A stretch of DNA of 64,000 nt from assembly GCA_015179125.1 (NCBI GenBank), contig WHVA01000120.1, forward strand, positions 124,001 through 188,000. The letters are read 5' to 3'. Within the stretch, counting starts at the first letter, position 1. Each line of letters begins with the position of its first letter. Shown here in pieces: positions 29,966-60,086 of this stretch. Origin of the DNA: Gautieria morchelliformis. Lineage: Eukaryota > Basidiomycota > Agaricomycetes > Gomphales > Gomphaceae. The notes beneath the pieces are model-generated. The model made no database searches, had not been told where the DNA came from, and saw only the letters and a list, made by a program, of their open reading frames with translations. A program made the translations under genes and the position numbers.

Positions 29966-31978
29966 TCAAAGAGCATTCTTGATTGCAGTGCGAACTGAAG
30001 CAGGATCAAAGATAACAGTGGCAAGGAGTTGGGCTTGAGATAAGACTTGACCAGCCTTGAGAATTGATTGGAAGTTGTGGGGATTAGCTGATGCATAAGT
30101 GCCTTCCCCCCCTCTAGGGTACACGTCGCCTCGACATGTCAGTGCATCTGGGTTAGTACCAAGCCGACCAGGTCGATAGCGAATTGTGAAATGGAATCCA
30201 GAGAGGTATTCAGCCCAACGTGCTTGACGGTGAGTGAGTTGCTTTGAGGTCATGAAATACTCAAGGTTCTTGTGGTCAGAAAGAACCAAAACAATATGTG
30301 AGGAACCTTCCAGGTAAGCACACCATGTTTTGAATGCTTGAAAGATGGCAAGAAGTTCCTTGTCATATATTTCATAATTGAGTTCAGCAGCGACCATACT
30401 GCGAGAATGGAAAGCAACTGGGTGGATATCACCATCAAGAGGCGATATTTGGGACAGGATCATAGCGATGGCATAGTCCGAAGCATCAATTTCAAGGACA
30501 ATGGGGTTGTTGGGGTCGAAGTGGATGAGAATGGGAGCAGTGGTGAAACTATGTTTGAGGGAATCAAATGCTGCTTGACATTTTGTCGTCCAAATGTAGG
30601 GTGTGTCCTTCCGAGTCAACTTGTTGAGAGGAACAGTGATCTCAGAATACTTGTCAATGAAGCGTCGATAGAAGTTGCAGAAACCTAAGAAGGATTGGAG
30701 GTCTCTAACTCCTTGAGGGATGGCCCAGTTACGAATTACTGTGGTTTTGGCAGAGTCCATTGAAACACCATCATGTGAGATGATAAAGCCCAAAAACTCT
30801 ACAATGTTGGTGTGAAACAGACATTTTTCTGGTTTGGCATGAAGGTTGTGATCCCTGAGACGTTGTAAGACCATACGGACATGTTCCTGATGCTTGGTGG
30901 CATCCTCCGAGTAGATGAGGATGTCATCAATATAAATGACAACAAAGATGTCGGCCATGTCACGGAAAATATCATTCATGAAGTGTTGGAATGTGGCTGG
31001 TGCATTGGTGAGCCCAAACGGCATGACCAAGTATTCAAAGGAGCCATATCTTGTATGAAAAGCAGTTTTCCATTCTTCTCCAGGAGCTATGCGAACATTG
31101 TTGTAGCCCGCTCGAAGGTCAATTTTGGAAAAGATAGTAGCTTTGCGTAGGCGATCAATGAGATTTCCAACAAGGGGAAGGGGATCTCGGTTCTTCTTGG
31201 TGACCCGGTTGAGCCCTCTGTAGTCCACACAAAGGCGAAGTGATCCATCCTTCTTTTTGGCAAAGAGAATGGGGGCTCCTGCAGGGGAACTTGATGACCG
31301 AATGAAGCCTTTCTGAAGATTCTCATCAAGGTTCTCTTTGAGTGCCTTTAGTTCAACTTCAGAGAGGGAGTAGATGGGGCCATATGGGGGCGATTTTCCC
31401 TCTTCTAAAGGAATGGAGTGATCAAAAGGACGATGTGGTGGGAGAGTTTCTGCCTGTTCTCTGGAAAAGACGTCTGAAAAATCTCGGTACTCTTCAGGTA
31501 CAACACGTTCCAAGAGTTCCTTTTCCTCAGTGGGAAGGGGAGTGTCGTACAAGGCAGTGGTGGGAGCAGGTTGTCCTGTGGCACGAAGAGAAGAGGTGGG
31601 GCTTGAATAGGGAGCCATGTAAAAGGAAAAGCAAGGGATTCCCTGTTTGCAAAGCTTGTGGAATGCTGCAGCGCCAATAAGGGAAATCTTGGGAGGAAAC
31701 CGACTAGGAGATGTTGGTGTAGGAATTTCTGAACTGAAAAAGGGAAGAGAGTTGTCCATAGATATAGAAAATGAAGGGTCCAGTAGTGAGCTAGTGTCAC
31801 ATGAGGAGGTTGGCAAGCTAGTGTTGCAGAAGGGGTGAGGTGAGCTAATGTCACTTGGGAGATGTGGTGAGCTAATGTCACCCAAGGGATGTAGTGAGCT
31901 AATGTCACCCAAGGGATGTGGTGAGCTAATGTCACCCGAGGGATGTGGCGAGCTAATGTCACCAGAACAATGCGGCAA
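29966..31978 (-). CDS. Gypsy reverse transcriptase and RNase H
   Basis: An open frame of 670 codons. After a 9-residue repeat region (first 75 residues) come the RT blocks SRFPP...FSREQAETLPPHRPFDH, AGAPILFAKKKDGSLRLCVD, GYNNVRIAPGEEWKTAF, FGLTNAPATFQ and the YIDD catalytic motif (VVIYIDDILIYSED). RNase H follows with LEIDASDYAIAMIL, NYEIYDKELLAIF and LSDHKNLEYF. All catalytic acids visible are kept. Domain order RT-RNase H-INT is the gypsy order. Confidence 0.93.
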   Translation of the reverse strand: MPHCSGDISSPHPSGDISSPHPLGDISSLHPLGDISSPHLPSDISSPHPFCNTSLPTSSCDTSSLLDPSFSISMDNSLPFFSSEIPTPTSPSRFPPKISLIGAAAFHKLCKQGIPCFSFYMAPYSSPTSSLRATGQPAPTTALYDTPLPTEEKELLERVVPEEYRDFSDVFSREQAETLPPHRPFDHSIPLEEGKSPPYGPIYSLSEVELKALKENLDENLQKGFIRSSSSPAGAPILFAKKKDGSLRLCVDYRGLNRVTKKNRDPLPLVGNLIDRLRKATIFSKIDLRAGYNNVRIAPGEEWKTAFHTRYGSFEYLVMPFGLTNAPATFQHFMNDIFRDMADIFVVIYIDDILIYSEDATKHQEHVRMVLQRLRDHNLHAKPEKCLFHTNIVEFLGFIISHDGVSMDSAKTTVIRNWAIPQGVRDLQSFLGFCNFYRRFIDKYSEITVPLNKLTRKDTPYIWTTKCQAAFDSLKHSFTTAPILIHFDPNNPIVLEIDASDYAIAMILSQISPLDGDIHPVAFHSRSMVAAELNYEIYDKELLAIFQAFKTWCAYLEGSSHIVLVLSDHKNLEYFMTSKQLTHRQARWAEYLSGFHFTIRYRPGRLGTNPDALTCRGDVYPRGGEGTYASANPHNFQSILKAGQVLSQAQLLATVIFDPASVRTAIKNAL

Positions 31979-33690: not shown

Positions 33691-34122
33691 TTAAGCCGAA
33701 CGTGGCCCAATGAGGGCATTCAGATGTAGGACCTTGTGGCGCAGGAGGGCTTTGGTGAATATGTCGGTCTGTTTGAGCTCCCAGTCATTTCTGACTGCTA
33801 TGGCAACGATGACGCGGATGGTGGAAAGCTTAGCTGTGGGTGAGAAAGTCTCGTTGTAGTCTATTCCCTCGCTCTGGGAAAACCCTTGCACAACGAGCCG
33901 TGTCTTGTGCGCTACGACTTTGCCTTCCGCGTCGAACTTGTGGTGAAAAACCAACCTACCACCGACAATGTTCGCCCCTTTCAGAGGCTCTACCAGGTCC
34001 CACCTCCCCAAAGTTGCGTGCTGGTCCAGTTCCCATCTTATAGACACGTCCCACTGGGGCCAGTCTTCGTGCGAGCACGCGTCCTTCAGGTTCATGGGAT
34101 CGGCCCCTACTTTGTGCGCCAT
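33691..34122 (-). pseudogene. Copia 1 RT start fused to pol C-terminus
   Basis: The frame opens with the copia RT entry region (LVEPLKGANIVGGRLVFHHKF, GIDYNETFSPTAKLSTIRVI) and reaches NDWELKQTD. It then jumps to IFTKALLRHKVLHLNALIG, which is the extreme C-terminus of copia pol (D..TKAL). About 1.2 kb of RT and RNase H is missing. The joint falls in the shared word coding for TD/DI, which suggests a microhomology deletion. The stop TAA (33691-33693) abuts the polypurine tract. Confidence 0.85.
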
Positions 34123-35959
34123 CAGTGACTTGACAAGTCAGTGTGTCAATGTCCTCCCCTAGCTCCTCCCCTAGCTCCTCCAGTGCCGCCATGCCTGAGT
34201 TCTCGGTGGGCAGGGGTAACCCTCGAGGGTATACCGGTGTGTTCGCATGTCCTGTGCTGCTGCCGGTCCCCTCGGTGATCCCACGGACATACACGGATGG
34301 TTTCCGTGCACTGTGGCCCCTCCCCTGTGGCTGCTCTGCTGGAGGGTCCAGGGCTTCAAGTCCTTCCAGTGGGTCGATCCTGGCGGGGTCTGGTGCTGGT
34401 GGTGTGGCTGGGGGTCCGTTGGGGTAGTCACCACTGGTGCTCTGACTGTCACGGGTGGTGGACTCCCCCTCAGTCTGGGCGTCAGTGGTGATAATGACCG
34501 GCCCGTCGAACGTCACGTTGCGCTCCACCGTGACACGGTGTTTTCCGGGCCAGTAGACCCTGTGCCCCTTACTTTCGTTGCTATAGCCCACCCACCTTCC
34601 CTCCTCCGCCTTAGGCTCGAGCTTTCCGCAGTCCTCTTTGAGGATGAACACCCTGGTTCCCCATTCCAGGAGGTCGCTGAGATCAGGTCTCGCGCTGTGC
34701 ACGACCTCGTACGGTGTTTTACTGTCGAGTGCACGCCTAGAGGTCTTGTTTTTCAGCCAGACCGCGTGTTGGATGGACTCGGTCCATAGGAACTTCGGTA
34801 GTGCAGCAGTGATATGCATCACCCGTGTGTGCTTGAGCAGCGTCTGGTTCAGAAGCTCAGACATGCCGTTCTCTTCCAGCATGTCGTGCACAGTAAGGCT
34901 TCTCACAGTTCCCTTCGACTTTAGGTGAGCCGTGAACTCATCGGAGCGGTACTCACCCCCTCGGTTGGTTTGCAATTGTTTGACCTTAGCGTTATGCTGG
35001 GCCTCCACCCAGGCTTCATATTGCCAGTAGCGACCAAAAGTGTCGCTCTTCTTCGCTATGGTCTCCAGGTACATCCACCGGCTGTAGTCATCGGTGAAGC
35101 TTACGAAATATTCCTTGCCATCGTAACTTTGGGGGTTCGTGGGCCCCCATATGTCCAAATGGACTTTTTCACATGTGGCACGCGGTCCCTCCCGCTTCTG
35201 CGGGATGGGCTTGCATGTTGGCTTTGCCTGTGCAGATGCAGTGCAAAAACCAGGCTGGCTCGACATATCAACATCAAGTCCCGTTATAATGCTGTCCTGG
35301 ACTAGCTTCCAGGCGGCCTGTGGGGAAATGTGCCCCATCCAGCGATGCAGATCGTCCAGCGTAAGTGGCTTCCACACTGCGTTTGCCATCGCCACTGTTG
35401 ACCTGTGCTCTACCTTGTAGAGCCCGTTTGAGAGCGGAACCTGCCCAAGCAGTGTTCCTTGTGCATCTCGAATCAAACACTTCTGGTCCTTCAGCAGGAC
35501 TGAGAAACCGGCCGCATCACAGCACATTAGGGAAATTAAGGTAAAGCCAAGGTCGGGGCAGTATAGCATGTCCTTCAGGGTAACGTGCATGGTTGCTTTG
35601 CCGTTGGGTATACTGATTTTCAAGTTCCCGATACCTGTAGCTTGAAAAAGGGTCTTGTCCACGGCATTGATTGTGCGTGGTGCAATCTCTTTGAAGGTGA
35701 GGAAGCGGTGCCTGCTCGGCAACATGTGACCTGACACGCCCAAGTCGTAGACGTCAACTTCCCGTCCTGTCGGTGTACTCGATCCCAGCGCGACTGTAGT
35801 CCCAGCGAATGTTGTGGTGAACGCAAACTCCTCGCTCTCTGTTGCCACGTTCGCTGACCCACCTCCTTTCTTATCTTCATCCTTTTTGTCCTTCTTCTTA
35901 GCTTTAGAACGGCAATCCGCCTTCATGTGGCCCTTTTTGCCACATTCCCAGCATTCCAT
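33956..35959 (-). pseudogene. Copia 1 zinc knuckle, protease and integrase
   Basis: MECWECGKKGHMKADC is an intact CX2CX4HX4C knuckle at the start. The protease block reads VDVYDLGVSGHM, where the usual D-S-G is D-L-G, probably inactive. GAG-pre-integrase (LHRWMGHISPQAAWKLV..FCTASAQAK) precedes the integrase core (HLDIWGP, FTDDYSRWMYLE, NRGGEYRSDEF). Relatives have NG.AE at SELLNQTL. A frame change near 34070 separates it from the RT part, and a TGA at 36071-36073 separates it from Gag in the same frame. Confidence 0.85.
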
Positions 35960-36743: not shown

Positions 36744-37183
36744 TGTTGCTAGATACGTGCAGTAGTCTAATGTAAAAGTGCTATACACACAGAGATAAGT
36801 GTCCTGTAGCTTTAGGCATAATATGGTATGTACCTCAGTGAACGGGTGCTTCACTGAGGTACATCTGACTACGAGTCTGATCTATATACTAGCTTCGGTC
36901 ATTCAAGACCGAAGCTATTAACATTCTCCCTACTCTGATTGTGGTAGCAACTCAGTAGATATACACACAGAGATAAGTGTCCTGTAGCTTTAGGCATAAT
37001 ACGGTACGTACCTCAGTGAATGGGTGCTTCACTGAGGTACATCTGACTACGAGTCTGATCTATATACTAGCTTCGGTCATTCAAGACTGAAGCTATTAAC
37101 ATTCTCCCTACTCTGATTGTCCGGTCGTGCGGTGCACGGCCCTGCTGCATTCTACGCTTGCCCATCGTACGCAAACTCCAACA
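36744..37183 (-). repeat. Copia 1 5' LTR with internal duplication
   Basis: On the plus strand it runs from TGTTGCTAGATACG (next to the primer site) to AACTCCAACA. A block of about 170 bp (36783-36941) is repeated at 36959-37140, so hairpins GTACCTCAGTGAA..TTCACTGAGGTAC occur twice (36830-36862 and 37008-37040). It could also be one LTR joined to a fragment of another. Confidence 0.8.
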
Positions 37184-37756
37184 GAGGGAGAATTTTTTTC
37201 TGCGCTGAATGATGGATCTAATGACGTATGTATTGTATTTTTTATTACATAATCCTGTTGTACTGTAACCGCATGACCGGCTCAATAATGCGTCATGGCG
37301 CCCTTTGAGCCGAGCCATTTTTGGCGCTTGTAACGCGTCACGGTGGCTTCTGAGCCTTCATCCAATCGATTGCGTCACGGTATAGGGTGTACTTAATAGC
37401 TGCTCTACAGTGGCTTTTATGTGATGCTCCATCCAGAACAAATTGCTGTAGAGCTGATTAAGTTGTCTTTTGTACATCCCCTTGCCTCCCAACCCATCTT
37501 CGGCCTCGGTCTGTCTGAGCCATTTTGGGTGTGTCACGCATCACATGGACCCTTGAGCCATTGCAGAACTTCCGGGCTACCGGGAAACGGTCTATGGACC
37601 TCGGTCTATAGACTAGACCCACACCATATGCACCCACAGCAATCACTTGCCATATCCAGATCTGGAATAAGTATAAATAACAAAATAACCAAAGTAAAGA
37701 AACTAAACAAAATAACGGTAAATAATAATAGACCTACTGTATAGTTCTGCCACAAA

Positions 37757-38045
37757 AAGAAAATTTTATTGTCCCTTCACAACAGCATGCTATCCCACCG
37801 CTGCCACTGCCACCCTCCCCACCGTTGCCTCTGGAGACATGGGAGTCCAGTGCAGACTATGGACATCAAACCTTCGCAGCCTCTGATGAAGATATTCAGA
37901 AAGTGGTATCACAAGGAAAAGGGAAAGGAAAGGCGAAGGCCATAGGGAAAGGAAAATGGCAAGAGGGACATGTGAAGGAGGAACCAGAAGAAAAACCATA
38001 CCGAGTGCTAATCCAGGATGGCCAGGAAATTCTTATCGTTGATTA
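37757..38045 (+). pseudogene. Unrecognised C-terminal gene fragment
   Basis: A proline-rich stretch (PPLPLPPSPPLP) leads into WESSADYGHQTFAASDEDIQ, a Lys/Gly tract (GKGKGKAKAIGKGK) and a C-terminus EKPYRVLIQDGQEILIVD at 38043. It looks like the end of a real protein, not noise, but I cannot name it. It may be a third captured fragment in the TIR segment. Confidence 0.4.
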
Positions 38046-38193
38046 ATTAGCACTTCCAGGTGGATTCATAGATAGATAGATATACACCGGCATTGAATAG
38101 ACTAATGGCATGCACACCCTTACAAAACAATCATGAATTGTATAAAGTCACAAATTGAACCTGCTAGATATCTACTAATGCCATTATCTAGGT

Positions 38194-38715
38194 TCAAAGC
38201 TTGGACACGGGCGGCAGCACGCCGTACGCGTCGCACGTGAGGAACTCGATCAGGTCCCGCAGCGCATGTTCTCGGTGATGCTCACGTCGTCGTAGTCCGG
38301 CGCGACGTGGGGCTGTACACGACCTTCTCAAGGATGGACCCGAAGCGGATCGCCTCGAAGATCTCGGGCTCCTTCTCGTGCGAGAGGTTGATGCACTTGG
38401 TGTGGCACCCGCCCTCGATGTTGAAGACGCCCGTGTCGGACCAGACGTGCTCGTCGTCGCCGATGAGCTGCCGGCGCGGGTCTGCGGAGAGGGTGCTGCG
38501 GGGGGTGGGCGGGACGCTACGCGGAGGAGGGAAACGGGCACTCACATCTTCCCTGTGCCAGAGAGACCGAAGAAGAGGGTGACGTCGCCGTTGGCGGACA
38601 AGTGGAGGGACAGCTGGCCGAACTTGATGGGCTGGAGGTAGTGCATGATGGAGAAGATGCGGCTAATAGCGGCCCTGGCACCCTTCAGGGCTTCCCAGAA
38701 ACTTGCGGAACACGA
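38194..38715 (-). pseudogene. Phosphoenolpyruvate carboxykinase (ATP) gene fragment
   Basis: Minus-strand exons give [19 protein letters not shown], the kinase loop [11 protein letters not shown], an intron of about 50 bp (GT..CGCAG, near 38495-38545), then [35 protein letters not shown] and [19 protein letters not shown]. These are the ATP-dependent PEPCK nucleotide and metal site motifs. The sequence then skips from VSITENMRC to FLTCDAYGVLPPVSKL, losing about 20-30 residues, and stops at 38194. Both the N-terminal half and the C-terminus are missing. In the intact enzyme this makes PEP from oxaloacetate in gluconeogenesis; this piece cannot. Confidence 0.85.
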
Positions 38716-40110
38716 GAGGTCGTGTTCTGTCCTGTACAGAGACAACCTTCTCGTGGTGCGAAGAGAGGGCGAGAGCGGCATAGAGAGTGCAGTAGAGAAC
38801 GCATCCCGGAGCATAAGATAAGAGCATTACTGCTCAGGCGCAATCGAATGGGTGAGGCATGCGAAATCAACACACTGTCAAGATTGGTTTTCAGGTGTTA
38901 ATATCGTGTATTAGTGAACACAGTGAATGCCCGAATAACTTGTGCGAATAAGTATGCCATTCGGCGAATAGGTGAACCAATGAATGTTCACAAGGTAAGA
39001 GGGTTTGCCTAAACAGGGCTTACCCTATCTACAGTCATAGTGAAATAGCTTGTGGTTCTTCACGATGTAACGTGCAAGATCTCACGGAAGGGCTGTCTAA
39101 GTCTCGACAATCCCTTCGCCAACAGGACAGAAAATGGTTCGAAGGCTAAGGTAACGAAGATGAAGTATGAGAACTCACCAGTGATGCCTAAGTCCTCTGT
39201 TGGTTGAAGATAGAAATCTCCAAGAGAAGGCTTAAGATGACGATCACAGCAAGGTCAAGTTTGCACAAGATGGATGACGTAGGATAATTGAACTGGGAAA
39301 TATACATGCGAATGTAAACTACTTATATTGAATGCTCGTAAGGTATCAGCGAATAGGAAAGAGGCCGTCACAAGTCAGGGTTGGATAGGGGTGCGCAGTC
39401 CTGATACAACATAGATGAAATAAACATACAATAGAATGTGAGAAGAGGGAGAACATGAAACGACGGAGAGTATAGGTGGCGAAGGCACTTATGGACAAAA
39501 CCATGTCTTGGGACCCGCATACATGCTACCCTGCACGGACTCTTGGTCTACTGGGTTGATCCTGCACGACCTATGGAAGGGATGTCCTGCGAACACACTT
39601 TGACCATACAAACGCCCAATGGGGTTGGATTAAGAAGACGATGGTGTTAACGATGAACCATCATACCGGGTGAATGGTATCGATCGTATTTGATGGTGTG
39701 CCTGCTGGTGAATGATGCGAGCAGCGAATGGCCGTTCGGCGAAATGCAAGGAAGGGCGAACAGAGGTGACATAGAGGAGGAGAGGTCGAGGTGGAGGGTG
39801 AAGCCGAGCGAACACTGGGGGGGAGTAGCGAAAGGGAAAATGGGGATACCAAGGTGCAGGAAACACGCAGGTCATGACAATCCAATTATCAGGACACCAT
39901 CGGAAGAGGGTCGAGCAGAGGAGGTGGTAGACCCAGTGATGACTGCCAAGTCAGTCCAAAGATGTCGATCGTGCGTTTGACGGCGTGGCGATGGTAACTG
40001 GCGCGAACAGCGAGCATCGGTTGCCAAACATGACAATGGCGATCGGAACGAACACGGAAATGGGGTGAGAAATGGCAGGACAGAGCACCTGAGTATGAGG
40101 AATAAACGTG
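38716..40110. other. Middle of the TIR segment, nothing firm
   Basis: No recognised gene. Words like CGAATAGGTGAAC and GGCGAATAGG recur near 38930-38980 and 39350. Upstream PEPCK exon-like text may continue to about 38870. No transposase motif was seen on either strand. Confidence 0.4.
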
Positions 40111-40111
40111 T

Positions 40112-40701
40112 CATGACACACACCTTATACGGCATAAGATGTCCAAGTCCAATCTGCTCACGACATGCTTCTGATCCATCCTCCACATCGCCTCACTCGC
40201 TCTATCTTCTGCCTCGCTCTCGAAATCCCCAAACCACCCCATAACCTGTCTGACTACGCCCCTCCTCAACTCCATGTCGAGTTCCGATTCCAAGCAGTTC
40301 AGGAGGCGCTGCACTGGGACACGGGCTGGAGAAAGTGGTAGTCGCTGAGATATTAATGTTGTAAGGAGGGCTTAGAGGATGTGTGTTAGGTAAGGGGTGG
40401 ATAATGGGCGGAGGTGACCTGCAGGGTGAAGTAACCCATTAATTTTGTGTTTTATATGAAAAGGTAGAAAACGAGTGGTCATGCTGGAGATATAAGTGAA
40501 GGCAAGAGTCACACCATCAATATCTAGAATATGAAATTCCCTGAATGCTGCTCTCAGCTCCACGTCACTGGCTTGAACTTCGCCACGTATCGTATCTTTC
40601 GTGTATTGCGCAGGAGGCATCAAAATTTCTGTGTGATACAACTGATGGCACAGCAAAGGGTACTCTTGCGATATTTTAATGAGGTGATCTAAGGACGACA
40701 T
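40112..40701 (-). pseudogene. Dcc1-like sister-chromatid cohesion gene fragment
   Basis: Exon 1 (40701-40515) reads YTKDTIRGEVQASDVELR and AFREFHILDIDG, the QAS..EL..AL motif and central helix of Dcc1 (DSCC1, part of the Ctf18 clamp-loader complex). A 96-bp intron (40419-40514, GT..TGCAG) joins in frame to HLRPLSTPYLTHIL, then an in-frame TAA, then LLNCLESELDMELR and VVRQVMGWFGDFE, WRMDQKHVVSRLDL. These follow family order to the winged-helix end. The N-terminal half and last exon are missing. Family assignment is by remembered pattern. Confidence 0.6.
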
Positions 40702-40912
40702 ATCTAACTACTTAGCTTATCTCAGTGGTCACGTGCCACTAAGTTATCGTTGCCGGCTCGGCGACAGCGCCCATAGCGGTCCAGGTCCAAAGGTCTATGG
40801 TCCAAGGTCCATAGACCTTTTCCCAGTAGCTCGGACGCTCTCAGCCATTGCCCCGGTGGAAGTTCCGTGTCACCCAAAATATCGTTGAGCCATTGGTCGT
40901 GCGGCTACAGTA

Positions 40913-41376
40913 TATCCACACCTGGCCTCACCTATGTTGCTAACACCCTTCTTTGTATAATTCATTTTGTTGCAGTTTGGACCTTGTCATATTTTTTTGG
41001 TGGCCCGGGCATCAACTTCTCCCGCGGGTCGCATCATGGTAGATCGACTTGGCGGCAAACTGAACTCAGTGAAGAGGCTGGCACCGGCGCCTCGCTGCAG
41101 CTGGCATGCTCATTCTCACATCCGGGCATATGCCGTACTCTGCCTACGGCTGGGAGAGAACTACTCCTGATGTCTGACTTGAGATCCGGCCGAGGGATAC
41201 ATTATTCATGTAACCATGTTCGCAGTACAAGTAATTAATCACTAAGGATGCCATGGGAAGCCTCTCACTCACAGGCCTCATTACGGGAATGAGATATACA
41301 CAATCATAGATGAGACTTACACCTTATAACCAGCAAAGAAACGTTTCCTCTCAAACGCTCTATATGTCGTCTCAAG
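40913..41376. other. P450 B downstream flank
   Basis: From about 41215 the sequence (TTCGCAGTA.., GGAAGCCTCT, GAGATACACAATCA) resembles the downstream flanks of P450 A (22025) and C (62320), so the duplication included this flank. No gene. Confidence 0.55.
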
Positions 41377-56231: not shown

Positions 56232-59200
56232 TTAATATATTCTGATTCTCTCGTTGAGGATTCTCACTCTAGGACTAGGAAGTCCTTTAGTGAGAAGATC
56301 GGATAGCATGTGTTCCGTTTGTTACGTATCGAGATTTCCGCTAAGTCGGAACTGGAAAGGACAGCGGCTTCAACTTGTAGGTTGCGCCCCCAATGAACTA
56401 TCGTCCTAGGTATTTCGGAAATGGGTCGGAAGTCGGAATGTACTTGAACTGAAGGTTGGTCGGAACTTGAGGCGGAAGACGGGAGGTGGAGAGACTGAGG
56501 TCTTGCTAGACTCGCTGTGCTAAGAACAGGAGATGGAGCAAAGGAAATCAAGTATCGAAGGTGATTATCTGATTGCAGAATAACAGACATACATGACAGG
56601 CTTTTATACAAAGAGCTGAGACAACAGGTAATGGGGTAGTACTAAGCAAATTCCAGGGGAAGCGGAAGTCGAGTAGACAATGTGTGGGAACTAACTAATT
56701 GGGAACAATGGGACTACAAGGGGGGTTCAGGGTAAAGTAAAACAATGGCAAAGGACAAGGGGACGGGAAAACATGTCTGACAACGAACTACAAGGGTGAC
56801 CGGATATATGATCTTGATGAATGATGAAATGGGTCCGGTGGGTCCGAGTAATAGAGTCGAAAGAACAAGGGAATAGAACAATGGGTGGAAATGTCAGAAA
56901 TATCGGATGGGCGGAAAGTGTTGCGGAACTGAAGGTCGGAAGTCGGAAATGAATGGTCGTAACACCGTTGGTAGGTACACAAGCTTAATTTCTCCATCTT
57001 CGACTATATCTCTGATGAAATATAATCTAATGTCGAAATGCTTGGTCCTCATGTGTTGTTGTGCCATAGATGATGGCAATGGCTGATTGATTGTCTGAAT
57101 AAAGTTTGATGGGATAATTCAGCGGTTGGAACACTTCAGAAATAAAGTGGCGCATCCATAAGGCTTCTTTGCTCGCATGAGTCAGGGCAACAAATTCGGC
57201 TTCAGTTGATGATAGGGCTACTATGGATTGTTTTTGACAACTCCATGATACTGTCCCTCCATCAATCTGAAAAATATAAGCCGAGTATGAGTGCCTGTGC
57301 TCTTGTGAAGCCCACATCTGAATATCCAATGAGGCCATCTCGATTCTTCCCAAGTGTCAATTTGTAGTCCATCGTGCCTGTTATATATTTAAAGACATGT
57401 TTCACTGCATTCCAATGAGTTGGACCTGGGTTTTCGAGAAATTGAGAAAGTAATGACACTGCGAATGCAATGTCTAGTCGAGTGGCTACAGCTGCCCACA
57501 TCAATGATCCTATCGTTTGTCTGTATGGAATTTTCAACATCTTCTGCTTGTCTTCATCTGTAGAAAGGCATTGGTCTCTGGATAATTTAACGGCTGGGTC
57601 GAGAGGCGTGGAAAATGTTTTGGCATCATCCAGATTGAATTTTTTGATGATTTTCTGGATGTATGCATTTTGGGATATTGCAATCGATTTGTTATTCCAA
57701 TCTCTTTCGATTTTGAGGTTCAAAAGCCAGTGAATCTCGCCTAGATCTTTCATACTGAATATCTGGGCAAGGTCATGCTTTACCCCATCGAGGATTGGTT
57801 GACTCTCAGCTGTGATAGTGAGGTCGTCTACTGCCGTTGCAATAATCGCATGCCCTCTCGGTCCACGTCTGCAAAATACAGCTCCATCCGAAGCTGATTT
57901 AGTGAATCCTAACTTGAGAAATTCACCACTCAGACGTTTGTACCATTCCCTTCCAGATTGTTTGAGGCCGTAAAGTGCTTTCTTCAGCAGGAGGACATCA
58001 CCTTTATCTCCGGTCTCATATCCATACGGCTGTCTCATGTAAATAGGTTCTGGCAGTGTAGCATTCAAATACGCACTGTCCACATCCATTTGGTGAATAG
58101 GCCAATTGTTCCTGGCAGCAATGGCACATATAATCCGTAATGAAGTCATCCGAGCAACAGGTGCATAGGTTTCATTGTAGTCGACTCCAAAACTTTGTGT
58201 AAAGCCTTGGGCGACCATCCTCAATCTAGGTGTAATGGGTTCACCTTCTGGATTGCGTTTCCAGAGGAATACCCATCTATTTCCGACAATATTTGCCCCA
58301 GGAGGTGGTTTAACCACTTCCGATACACCTTTGTCGAGTAGCACCTTGTACTCTTTATCCATTGATGCTTTCCACATAGGATCATTTAAGGCTTCATCTG
58401 CATTGCTAGGCTCGGTCTGATTCAAATCCGGCAGCACTTTATCTTTGCTTTGATCGGAGGTCGAAAGTGTACTGATGGCAAGGTTATAATCACTGATGCC
58501 GTCAGTTTCAGAGGATAAATCTTGTTCGAATAATTTGTCTTGATGGTCCTCAATGTCCTTGTAAGCTAGTGTAGTGATGTCTGCACCAGCATGTCTCTTA
58601 GCTTGAGATCTTGTTATGGGACCACTTGGGGCCGGCCGCTCCTGCTGCTGACGGATCCTCTCACTTCTCCTTGTTGGAGCAGCTTCTTTAGGTCTGACAT
58701 CAACAGTCTGACTGGCTTGCAGCTCTTCAAGACGTACCTCTTGTTCATTATCGTCAATTTCCTTGATCTTTGCCTCCTCACTGACTAAGCAACTAGGCAT
58801 GGGTGCTGGCGCCGAAATGGCCTGTATCACTTTTCTGGACGTAGGTAGCTGTGACTCTTCAATAGAAATGATTGGAGCTGTGCCCCCCTTCATCTCTGAG
58901 TCAAATATAACATTCCGCTCGACAGAAACCTTCTGAGAGTCAGGCCAGTAGATGCAGTGACCATGGCTCTGTCCAGAGATTCCTATCCACCGAGCTCTTT
59001 TGGCACGGGCTGCTAGTTTGTTTCCCTCTTTAACTTTAACGTAGACTTCAATTCCCCACATGTGTATGTCCTTCAGGTTCGGTTTTTCATGATGGATCAT
59101 TTCAAAAGGGGTTTTCTCTGGCAAAGCTCTTGTGTGCGTCCGATTCCTAAGATAGTTGGCGTGCAAAATTACATGCCCCCATAAAGTCTTAGGAAGACTT

Positions 59201-59622
59201 GATTCCAATAGCATGGCACGAGCTCTTTCAACTAGAGTTCGGTTTAAACGTTCAGCAACACCATTTGACTCTGGGGTGTCGTGTACAGTTAACCAATGCT
59301 TCATGCCTTGCTTGGCTAAATGCTGTTCAAATTCCGAGCTTGTGTATTCACCCCCTCTGTTGGAAACAAGTGCTTTGATATGCACGTTCCTCTGTTGAAG
59401 CATTAAGGCCTCGTAGAGTTTGTACTTTGAAAATGCTTCCGATTTGTTTGCCATCAAATAGATAACCAATTCCCTTGAATAGTCGTCGATGAAAGACACA
59501 TAATAGGATTTCTTGTCAATTGTGGAGTGTCTCGCTGGTCCCCAGACATCAGAATAAATTCTGTCACCGAATTTTGAAGATCGGCTTCTGGGTTCTTGAG
59601 GAAGTGATCTAGGTGCAATCTT
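56232..59622 (-). pseudogene. Copia 3 integrase, RT and RNase H (inverted segment)
   Basis: The long frame 59703-57262 (its first residues come from LTR sequence) reads IYSDVWGPARHS, IDDYSRELVIYL, NRGGEYTSSEFEQHL and SNGVAERLNRTLVERARAML (integrase). Then GVDYNETYAPVARMTSLRII, YMRQPYGYETGDKGDVLLLKK, ATAVDDLTI (catalytic DD kept, Tyr lost) and IHWLLNLKIERD (RT). RNase H continues in frame 57353-57027 (VALSSTEAEFVALTHASKEA, LYSDNQSAIAI) after a shift near 57300, and again after a shift near 57060 (HFDIRLYFIRDIVE). Its C-terminus, SDLLTKGLPSPRVRILNE, lies beyond the solo LTR and ends at 56230-56240. Confidence 0.88.
56320..56964 (+). repeat. Solo LTR inserted in copia 3 RNase H
   Basis: Starts TGTTACGTATCGAG, ends GGTCGTAACA, 645 bp, with CCGTT duplications at 56315-56319 and 56965-56969. 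The termini TGTTACG/CGTAACA are inverted repeats. It splits the copia RNase H C-terminus (VYLPT before, EHMLSDLLTKG after). Related sequence lies at 48.15-48.72 kb. Confidence 0.93.
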
Positions 59623-59623
59623 C

Positions 59624-60086
59624 ACCAAAATCAAGCATAATATATTTGATTTATTGTATGGTTTCCAATTCTTTCTCACATTGTTCTTGTACCATGCATT
59701 CACTTCCCTGATTACTTTTGAAAATTTCCAGTCACTCCCTACCTCTCCATTTCATTTTGTTATCTCTATTTTCACAAGCGGCTGCACCCAGCGGAGTTTG
59801 AAATGACTTCGACGCGCGAGCTCTTGAGCGCTAAAGGGCCGGGTGCACGTATATGCTTTCTGAGACAGGATAGTGCTCCTCTCTCAGTGACAATAAATTC
59901 ACTGAGAGAGGCGAGTAGTGTTCTTTATATTTTCATAGCATGTTGACTGAAAATCATGTAGTGCATTTGATTCTAGGTATTGTATTAATATAACAGTGAC
60001 AATAAATTCACTGAGAGAGTGCATTTGATTCTAGCTTTCTAAGAACTCTACCGAACCTTCCCTGCCATAACCCCGAGTTGCTAACA
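59624..60086 (+). repeat. Copia 3 3' LTR, lacking its first 24 bp
   Basis: ACCAAAATCAAGC to GAGTTGCTAACA, matching 54224-54686 with very few differences. The missing first 24 bases sit inverted at 56195-56218. Confidence 0.93.

Follow-up and report, generated by a model that had tools for sequence, protein, structure and literature searches.

Between positions 37261 and 40912 of the window, a 64,000-nucleotide stretch of DNA from Gautieria morchelliformis (contig WHVA01000120.1, positions 124,001 to 188,000), three insertions are very probably stacked in one another: a miniature inverted-repeat transposable element (MITE) targeting TA, then a gene-capturing Pack-TYPE transposon, most likely a hAT element, and later a long terminal repeat (LTR) retrotransposon. 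Gautieria is a gomphoid mushroom (Agaricomycetes, Gomphales) of truffle-like habit, and most work on Pack-TYPE elements appears to concern plants. An earlier note on this DNA, made from its letters alone, had treated the whole segment as a single gene-carrying transposon. The inverted ends that it reported at 37261 and 40912 are real, but they are those of a cargo-free MITE and do not bound the gene-bearing element; its Pack-type reading was right for another, nested element, which has terminal inverted repeats (TIRs) of its own and 8-bp target duplications. The genome searched comprised 122 Mb in 1113 contigs, designated here by C-numbers, the window lying on C139.

According to this account, a 365-bp TA-targeting MITE would have inserted first, and a non-autonomous gene-capturing transposon would then have entered it, duplicating 8 bp. 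Before its amplification, this Pack element would have taken up internal pieces of a PEP carboxykinase (PEPCK) gene and of a Dcc1 gene together with an RTC4-like tail, presumably during break or gap repair in which ectopic templates were copied, and a transposase from another locus, probably of the hAT type, would have mobilised it in trans. An LTR retrotransposon would later have entered the captured Dcc1 piece, leaving a solo LTR. The account is built on features observed directly, namely the nesting order, the target duplications, the donors, the common breakpoints, the introns and several cargo sets. The features that define the nesting are as follows.

37261..37563, plus strand: left part of the outer MITE, beginning TACTGTAACCGC, with its TA target site at 37261-37262
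37556..37563, unstranded: left copy of the 8-bp target duplication, AGCCATTG
37564..40842, plus strand: inner Pack-type element, 3279 bp (2031 bp minus the LTR insert)
37564..37831, plus strand: left terminal region, TIR CAGAACTTCCGGGCTACCGGGAAA, common to copies with other cargo
38876..40118, unstranded: solo LTR, 1243 bp, TG...CA, with the 5-bp duplication CACAC at 38871-38875 and 40119-40123
40613..40842, plus strand: right terminal region, TIR (reverse complement) GAGAGCGTCCGAGCTACTGGGAAA
40843..40850, unstranded: right copy of the 8-bp target duplication, AGCCATTG
40851..40912, plus strand: right part of the outer MITE, ending GGCTACAGTA, with TA at 40911-40912

Once the inner insert is collapsed, the outer element measures 365 bp and belongs to a cargo-free family. 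A genome search with element ends, which the earlier note had proposed, did find other copies: the left end of the MITE has at least 40 matches, the window's own included (40 of 82 candidates were scored, and some same-contig pairs may be fragments of a single copy). Eight fetched loci (C145, C218, C326, C338, C390, C526, C546 and C604) align from MITE position 25 or earlier to MITE position 350 or later, and these uninterrupted copies measure 354 to 375 bp, which leaves no space for gene cargo. A site without the MITE exists on C433 (71200-71600), where both flanks are continuous and a single TA stands in place of the TA-MITE-TA of the window, so that the TA noted at both edges is indeed the target site. 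Among the five right-flank homologues inspected, C433 is the only one in which the window's left flank is also present (it is missing from C257, C317, C599 and C186). Right-flank homologues start at 40915-40920 in eight cases (C433, C257 three times, C599, C186, C317 and C491), in agreement with the right boundary of the MITE. The outer element fits the definition of a MITE, being short and multicopy, with TIRs, a TA target site and no coding capacity.

In the window, this MITE is split at 37563/40851, whereas all eight uninterrupted copies cross the same site without duplication; the word AGCCATTG at the insertion site is exact in five of them and carries substitutions in the other three. The TIRs of the inner element are imperfect, starting CAGAACTTCC and GAGAGCGTCC, and the terminal regions common to its family extend over about 250 bp (left) and 210 bp (right). 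A 24-base pattern covering both TIR types retrieved 56 genome sites at three mismatches or fewer, and none when reversed as a control. Both ends of the inner element were recognised at 12 loci, seven of which (window, C153, C190, C211, C223, C228 and C276) are flanked by exact 8-bp direct repeats and two (C493 and C287) by 8-bp repeats with one mismatch. As for the third insertion, the solo LTR is missing from the four other copies that carry the PEPCK and Dcc1 pieces, which read through with a single CACAC; it divides the Dcc1 piece and explains the previously unassigned middle of the 37261-40912 segment.

The internal PEPCK and Dcc1 pieces that the earlier note recognised, both on the minus strand and both with introns, are indeed there, the second (38803-40612) being interrupted by the LTR.

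38198..38660, minus strand: captured internal PEP carboxykinase piece with intron; donor C226:72935-73486
38803..38875, minus strand: captured Dcc1 piece, part 1; donor C391:21783-22347
40119..40612, minus strand: captured Dcc1 piece, part 2, with intron; donor C391:21783-22347

The identical set occurs in five copies (window, C153, C223, C228 and C287), whose target repeats are exact over 8 bp in four cases and have one mismatch in the fifth. All five align to the two donors with the same four breakpoints and with 93-96% identity outside gaps. Gap positions in the PEPCK alignments number from 16 to 89, the highest count being that of the window copy. Both pieces follow the order of their donor genes, and the two donors lie on separate contigs. 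The C226 PEPCK gene is 99% identical to a Gautieria morchelliformis protein, with 94% of the query covered. These were the source genes that the earlier note had suggested seeking: the C226 exons match PEPCK_ATP (PF01293) with 408.9 and 213.2 bits, and a C391 exon matches Dcc1 (PF09724) with 45.3 bits, the N-terminal part of the domain also being on C391. By comparison, the window's own open reading frames (ORFs) are weak (PEPCK 19.1 bits for a cut-off of 26.5; Dcc1 22.9 bits, at the cut-off). A search of the whole genome for the Dcc1 family returned seven matches: C391 accounts for two, and each of the five copies for one.

Both introns are kept in all five copies, although the PEPCK splice donor is mutated in C287. 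The PEPCK intron measures 50 nt in the window and 50-51 nt across copies versus 62 nt in the donor, a common shortening that fits a single capture followed by amplification; the Dcc1 intron measures 96 nt in the window and 96-105 nt across copies versus 98 nt in the donor. The five copies are mutually 93.8-97.6% identical. Added up over the five copies, the differences from the donors number 275, of which 130 are C-to-T or G-to-A; 95 of the latter fall at donor CpG, which makes up about a fifth of donor positions. This bias only hints at methylation decay, since shared differences are counted repeatedly and the direction of change is unpolarised.

The donors located on other contigs, the retained introns and the five copies with common breakpoints in different target duplications together establish a capture at the DNA level, as the earlier note had proposed. 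All four ORFs of at least 100 aa overlapping 37564-40842 were compared with Pfam: only PEPCK and Dcc1 were found and no transposase family, in line with the absence of a transposase noted before. Thus, the inner element is a Pack-TYPE transposon: TIRs and target duplications surround chromosomal gene fragments, it has no transposase of its own, intron-sharing donors lie elsewhere and the same ends occur with differing cargo.

Which transposase moves this family is a separate question. Domain searches of the genome gave at least 152 matches to hAT, for which 150 of 240 candidates were scored, and 91 KDZ exon matches, for which all 102 candidates were scored; with second exons excluded, 150 hAT and 47 KDZ positions were compared with the 56 TIR sites. 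A hAT dimerisation domain (PF05699; 37.5 bits for a cut-off of 21.4) lies 377 bp inside a TIR with a single mismatch on both C87 and C246, the stop codon of its frame being 206 bp from the TIR, and the number of hAT-TIR pairs expected within 1 kb under uniform positions is 0.138. The inner family is most likely mobilised by a hAT transposase, though this is not proven.

A number of observations weigh against this account. The hAT link amounts to one independent locus, as C87 and C246 share 98.9% identity across 4.2 kb, flank included; only a C-terminal piece of the transposase is recognised there, and no right TIR occurs in the stretches fetched. The hAT map is incomplete, given the share of candidates scored, and closeness to hAT domains is not specific to the inner family, as MITE ends also lie near them above expectation (five pairs within 3 kb versus 0.28 expected, using 38 of the 40 MITE matches). 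Zisupton elements too are described as creating 8-bp duplications (PMC12730594), and the cargo of the C276 copy includes a match to the KDZ-associated CxC5 domain, below threshold (24.4 bits for a cut-off of 26.9). Three of the 12 both-ended loci (C291, C186 and C599) have no 8-bp direct repeat, and the flanks of C599 are inverted copies of each other. Finally, the status of C226 as the single PEPCK donor is based on a DNA search.

The best-surviving alternative, an unlikely one that nevertheless deserves some weight, holds that a Zisupton-type (KDZ) transposase mobilises the Pack element, the remainder of the account being unchanged. KDZ genes are plentiful in this genome, the length of the duplications is compatible with Zisupton, and the C276 cargo has the sub-threshold CxC5 match. 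This candidate was set back by position: among the 47 KDZ positions compared, none comes nearer than 20 kb to one of the 56 TIR sites (three mismatches or fewer), whereas the C87/C246 hAT domain lies within a matching TIR. The autonomous partner looked for at the suggestion of the earlier note was not found in intact form in this genome. Two candidates for it, C682 and C162, were rejected, their ORFs resembling a Gypsy-type retrotransposon by eye; two other C682 ORFs have no Pfam match.

Three further explanations were ruled out by target duplications, donor positions and the comparison of copies. That the MITE itself was the captor, forming one Pack element with the 37261/40912 ends, is hardly credible: the cargo does sit between these ends, but the four other PEPCK/Dcc1 copies have different flanks and 8-bp duplications of their own, a single one of these being mismatched, and the eight full-length MITE copies are empty. 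There is next to no chance that the cargo arose by segmental duplication or is a syntenic gene pair in decay, for although the pieces are collinear with their donor genes, the PEPCK and Dcc1 donors are on different contigs and the five same-breakpoint copies stand in different target duplications. A Helitron captor can practically be dismissed: Helitrons often capture several intron-bearing pieces, but they have neither TIRs nor target duplications, and the inner element has both. A passage of PMC4905642 likewise describes Helitrons as lacking a target duplication.

One of the five MITE-hAT pairs is at C282:163950-166120, where an outer-MITE copy is split by an insert with a hAT transposase relic. 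MITEs may be places where hAT elements land, or hAT elements places where MITEs land. A hAT origin of the MITE itself was considered and is disfavoured by the TA at C433 and by the hAT relic lying inside the C282 MITE.

Beyond the PEPCK and Dcc1 pieces, the inner element contains three other segments.

37832..38050, plus strand: third captured piece, the C-terminal tail of an RTC4-like domain protein, found at six other places
38159..38200, plus strand: 42-bp word, also in C216 (twice) and C195
38661..38802, plus strand: island separating the two captures, common to second-subfamily copies

The third piece, which the earlier note had offered as a possible capture, is real, with matches of 85-88% at the six other places. 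At one of these, on C148, it forms the end of an ORF that has an RTC4-like domain (PF14474; 33.1 bits for a cut-off of 23.7) and that lies downstream of a weakly TIR-like word (5 mismatches in 24, up to 8 being allowed). Because of this upstream word, the tail may derive from another transposon-linked gene family. Positions 38051-38158 had no match outside the window's subfamily in a DNA search.

Other members of the family are differently loaded. C190, C211 and C493 agree with the window's subfamily in roughly the left 250 bp, in the right end and in an island of 135-145 bp, and have other sequence between. In C190, 537 bp of cargo match C366:76995-77527 at 97%, within a 209-aa open frame that has no Pfam match, on a contig outside the list of TIR sites. 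C276:81131-82779 is a third cargo set, with weak methyltransferase matches (E 0.035 and 0.05). Two subfamilies differ in the sequence loaded on either side of a common central island, and the family looks modular. If the flanking intervals were preferred loading sites, a fungal hAT family would repeatedly load host DNA into the same set of bays, perhaps through gap repair of the element in which ectopic templates are copied, and would build new exon combinations at the DNA level in a basidiomycete; we put this forward tentatively, as a possibility that is rather doubtful at present.

Some loci are less complete or less regular. At C291:76087-76522, both types of inner-element end lie 436 bp apart; this may be a short derivative or, as no 8-bp repeat flanks it, a rearranged one. 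C419 and C238 have a recognised left-type end and no other. Stretches of about 7 kb at C599:11712-19319, which includes a long inverted repeat, and C186:197366-204426 have related TIRs at both ends and an ORF of the NAD-dependent epimerase type; no transposase was recognised among their ORFs, inspected by eye. They are possibly further gene-carrying relatives, and may not be independent of each other, as the 12 bases compared in their right flanks are the same.

Several published systems bear comparison. Maize and rice have Pack-TYPE hAT elements (Gisby and Catoni 2022, PMC8903248) that are likewise non-autonomous, with TIRs, 8-bp duplications and captured sequence between conserved ends; the Gautieria family differs from them by its basidiomycete host and by three unlinked sources traced within one subfamily. 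The words 'fungi' and 'animal' do not occur in that survey. In the fungi Pyrenophora and Pseudocercospora, hAT elements took up a housekeeping gene, histone H3, and amplified it (PMC3538342, PMC6710886), as the Gautieria family did with its cargo. However, histone H3 capture was inferred to be that of an intronless transcript or retrocopy (PMC6710886) and the longer Pyrenophora form still encodes a transposase, whereas the Gautieria family keeps introns, combines pieces of several genes and has no transposase left. The hAT7 elements of Puccinia are also basidiomycete hATs with a captured gene, a TET/JBP dioxygenase, but they create 7-bp duplications and were assigned to hAT from the transposase they themselves encode (PMC12730594). 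Helitrons of Pleurotus ostreatus are gene-carrying DNA elements in a basidiomycete too, although of the rolling-circle type (PMC4289320). The remark in the earlier note that such elements are little described in basidiomycetes is fair for TIR elements, while it passes over the rust hAT with TET/JBP and the gene-carrying Helitrons. No intron-retaining, multi-gene Pack-hAT from a fungus appeared among the titles and abstract openings listed from the openly licensed literature, nor in passages of PMC10853768, PMC10799480, PMC4905642 and PMC7550596.

Here, a basidiomycete family has taken up several intron-bearing genomic pieces whose donors can be traced and whose breakpoints are common to copies. 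Accordingly, a fungus now offers exact sequences from before and after the event for the study of exon shuffling by TIR transposons at the DNA level. In practical terms, such pieces might be mistaken for additional PEPCK or Dcc1 genes in a gene annotation. Copy counts given above may be inflated, as some loci look like the same one present twice: besides the C87/C246 pair, C340:51426 and C332:5952 have identical ORFs, which suggests haplotypes or assembly duplicates in both cases.

Elsewhere in the window, a 143-bp direct repeat (97%, spacing 178) at 36800-37120 lies immediately left of the outer MITE. Pieces of retrotransposon polyproteins, all on the minus strand, are found at 29969-31978 (RVT_1 reverse transcriptase and RNase H), 33959-35959 (Pol and integrase domains) and 57265-59703 (RVT_2), so that the window is a nest of transposons.

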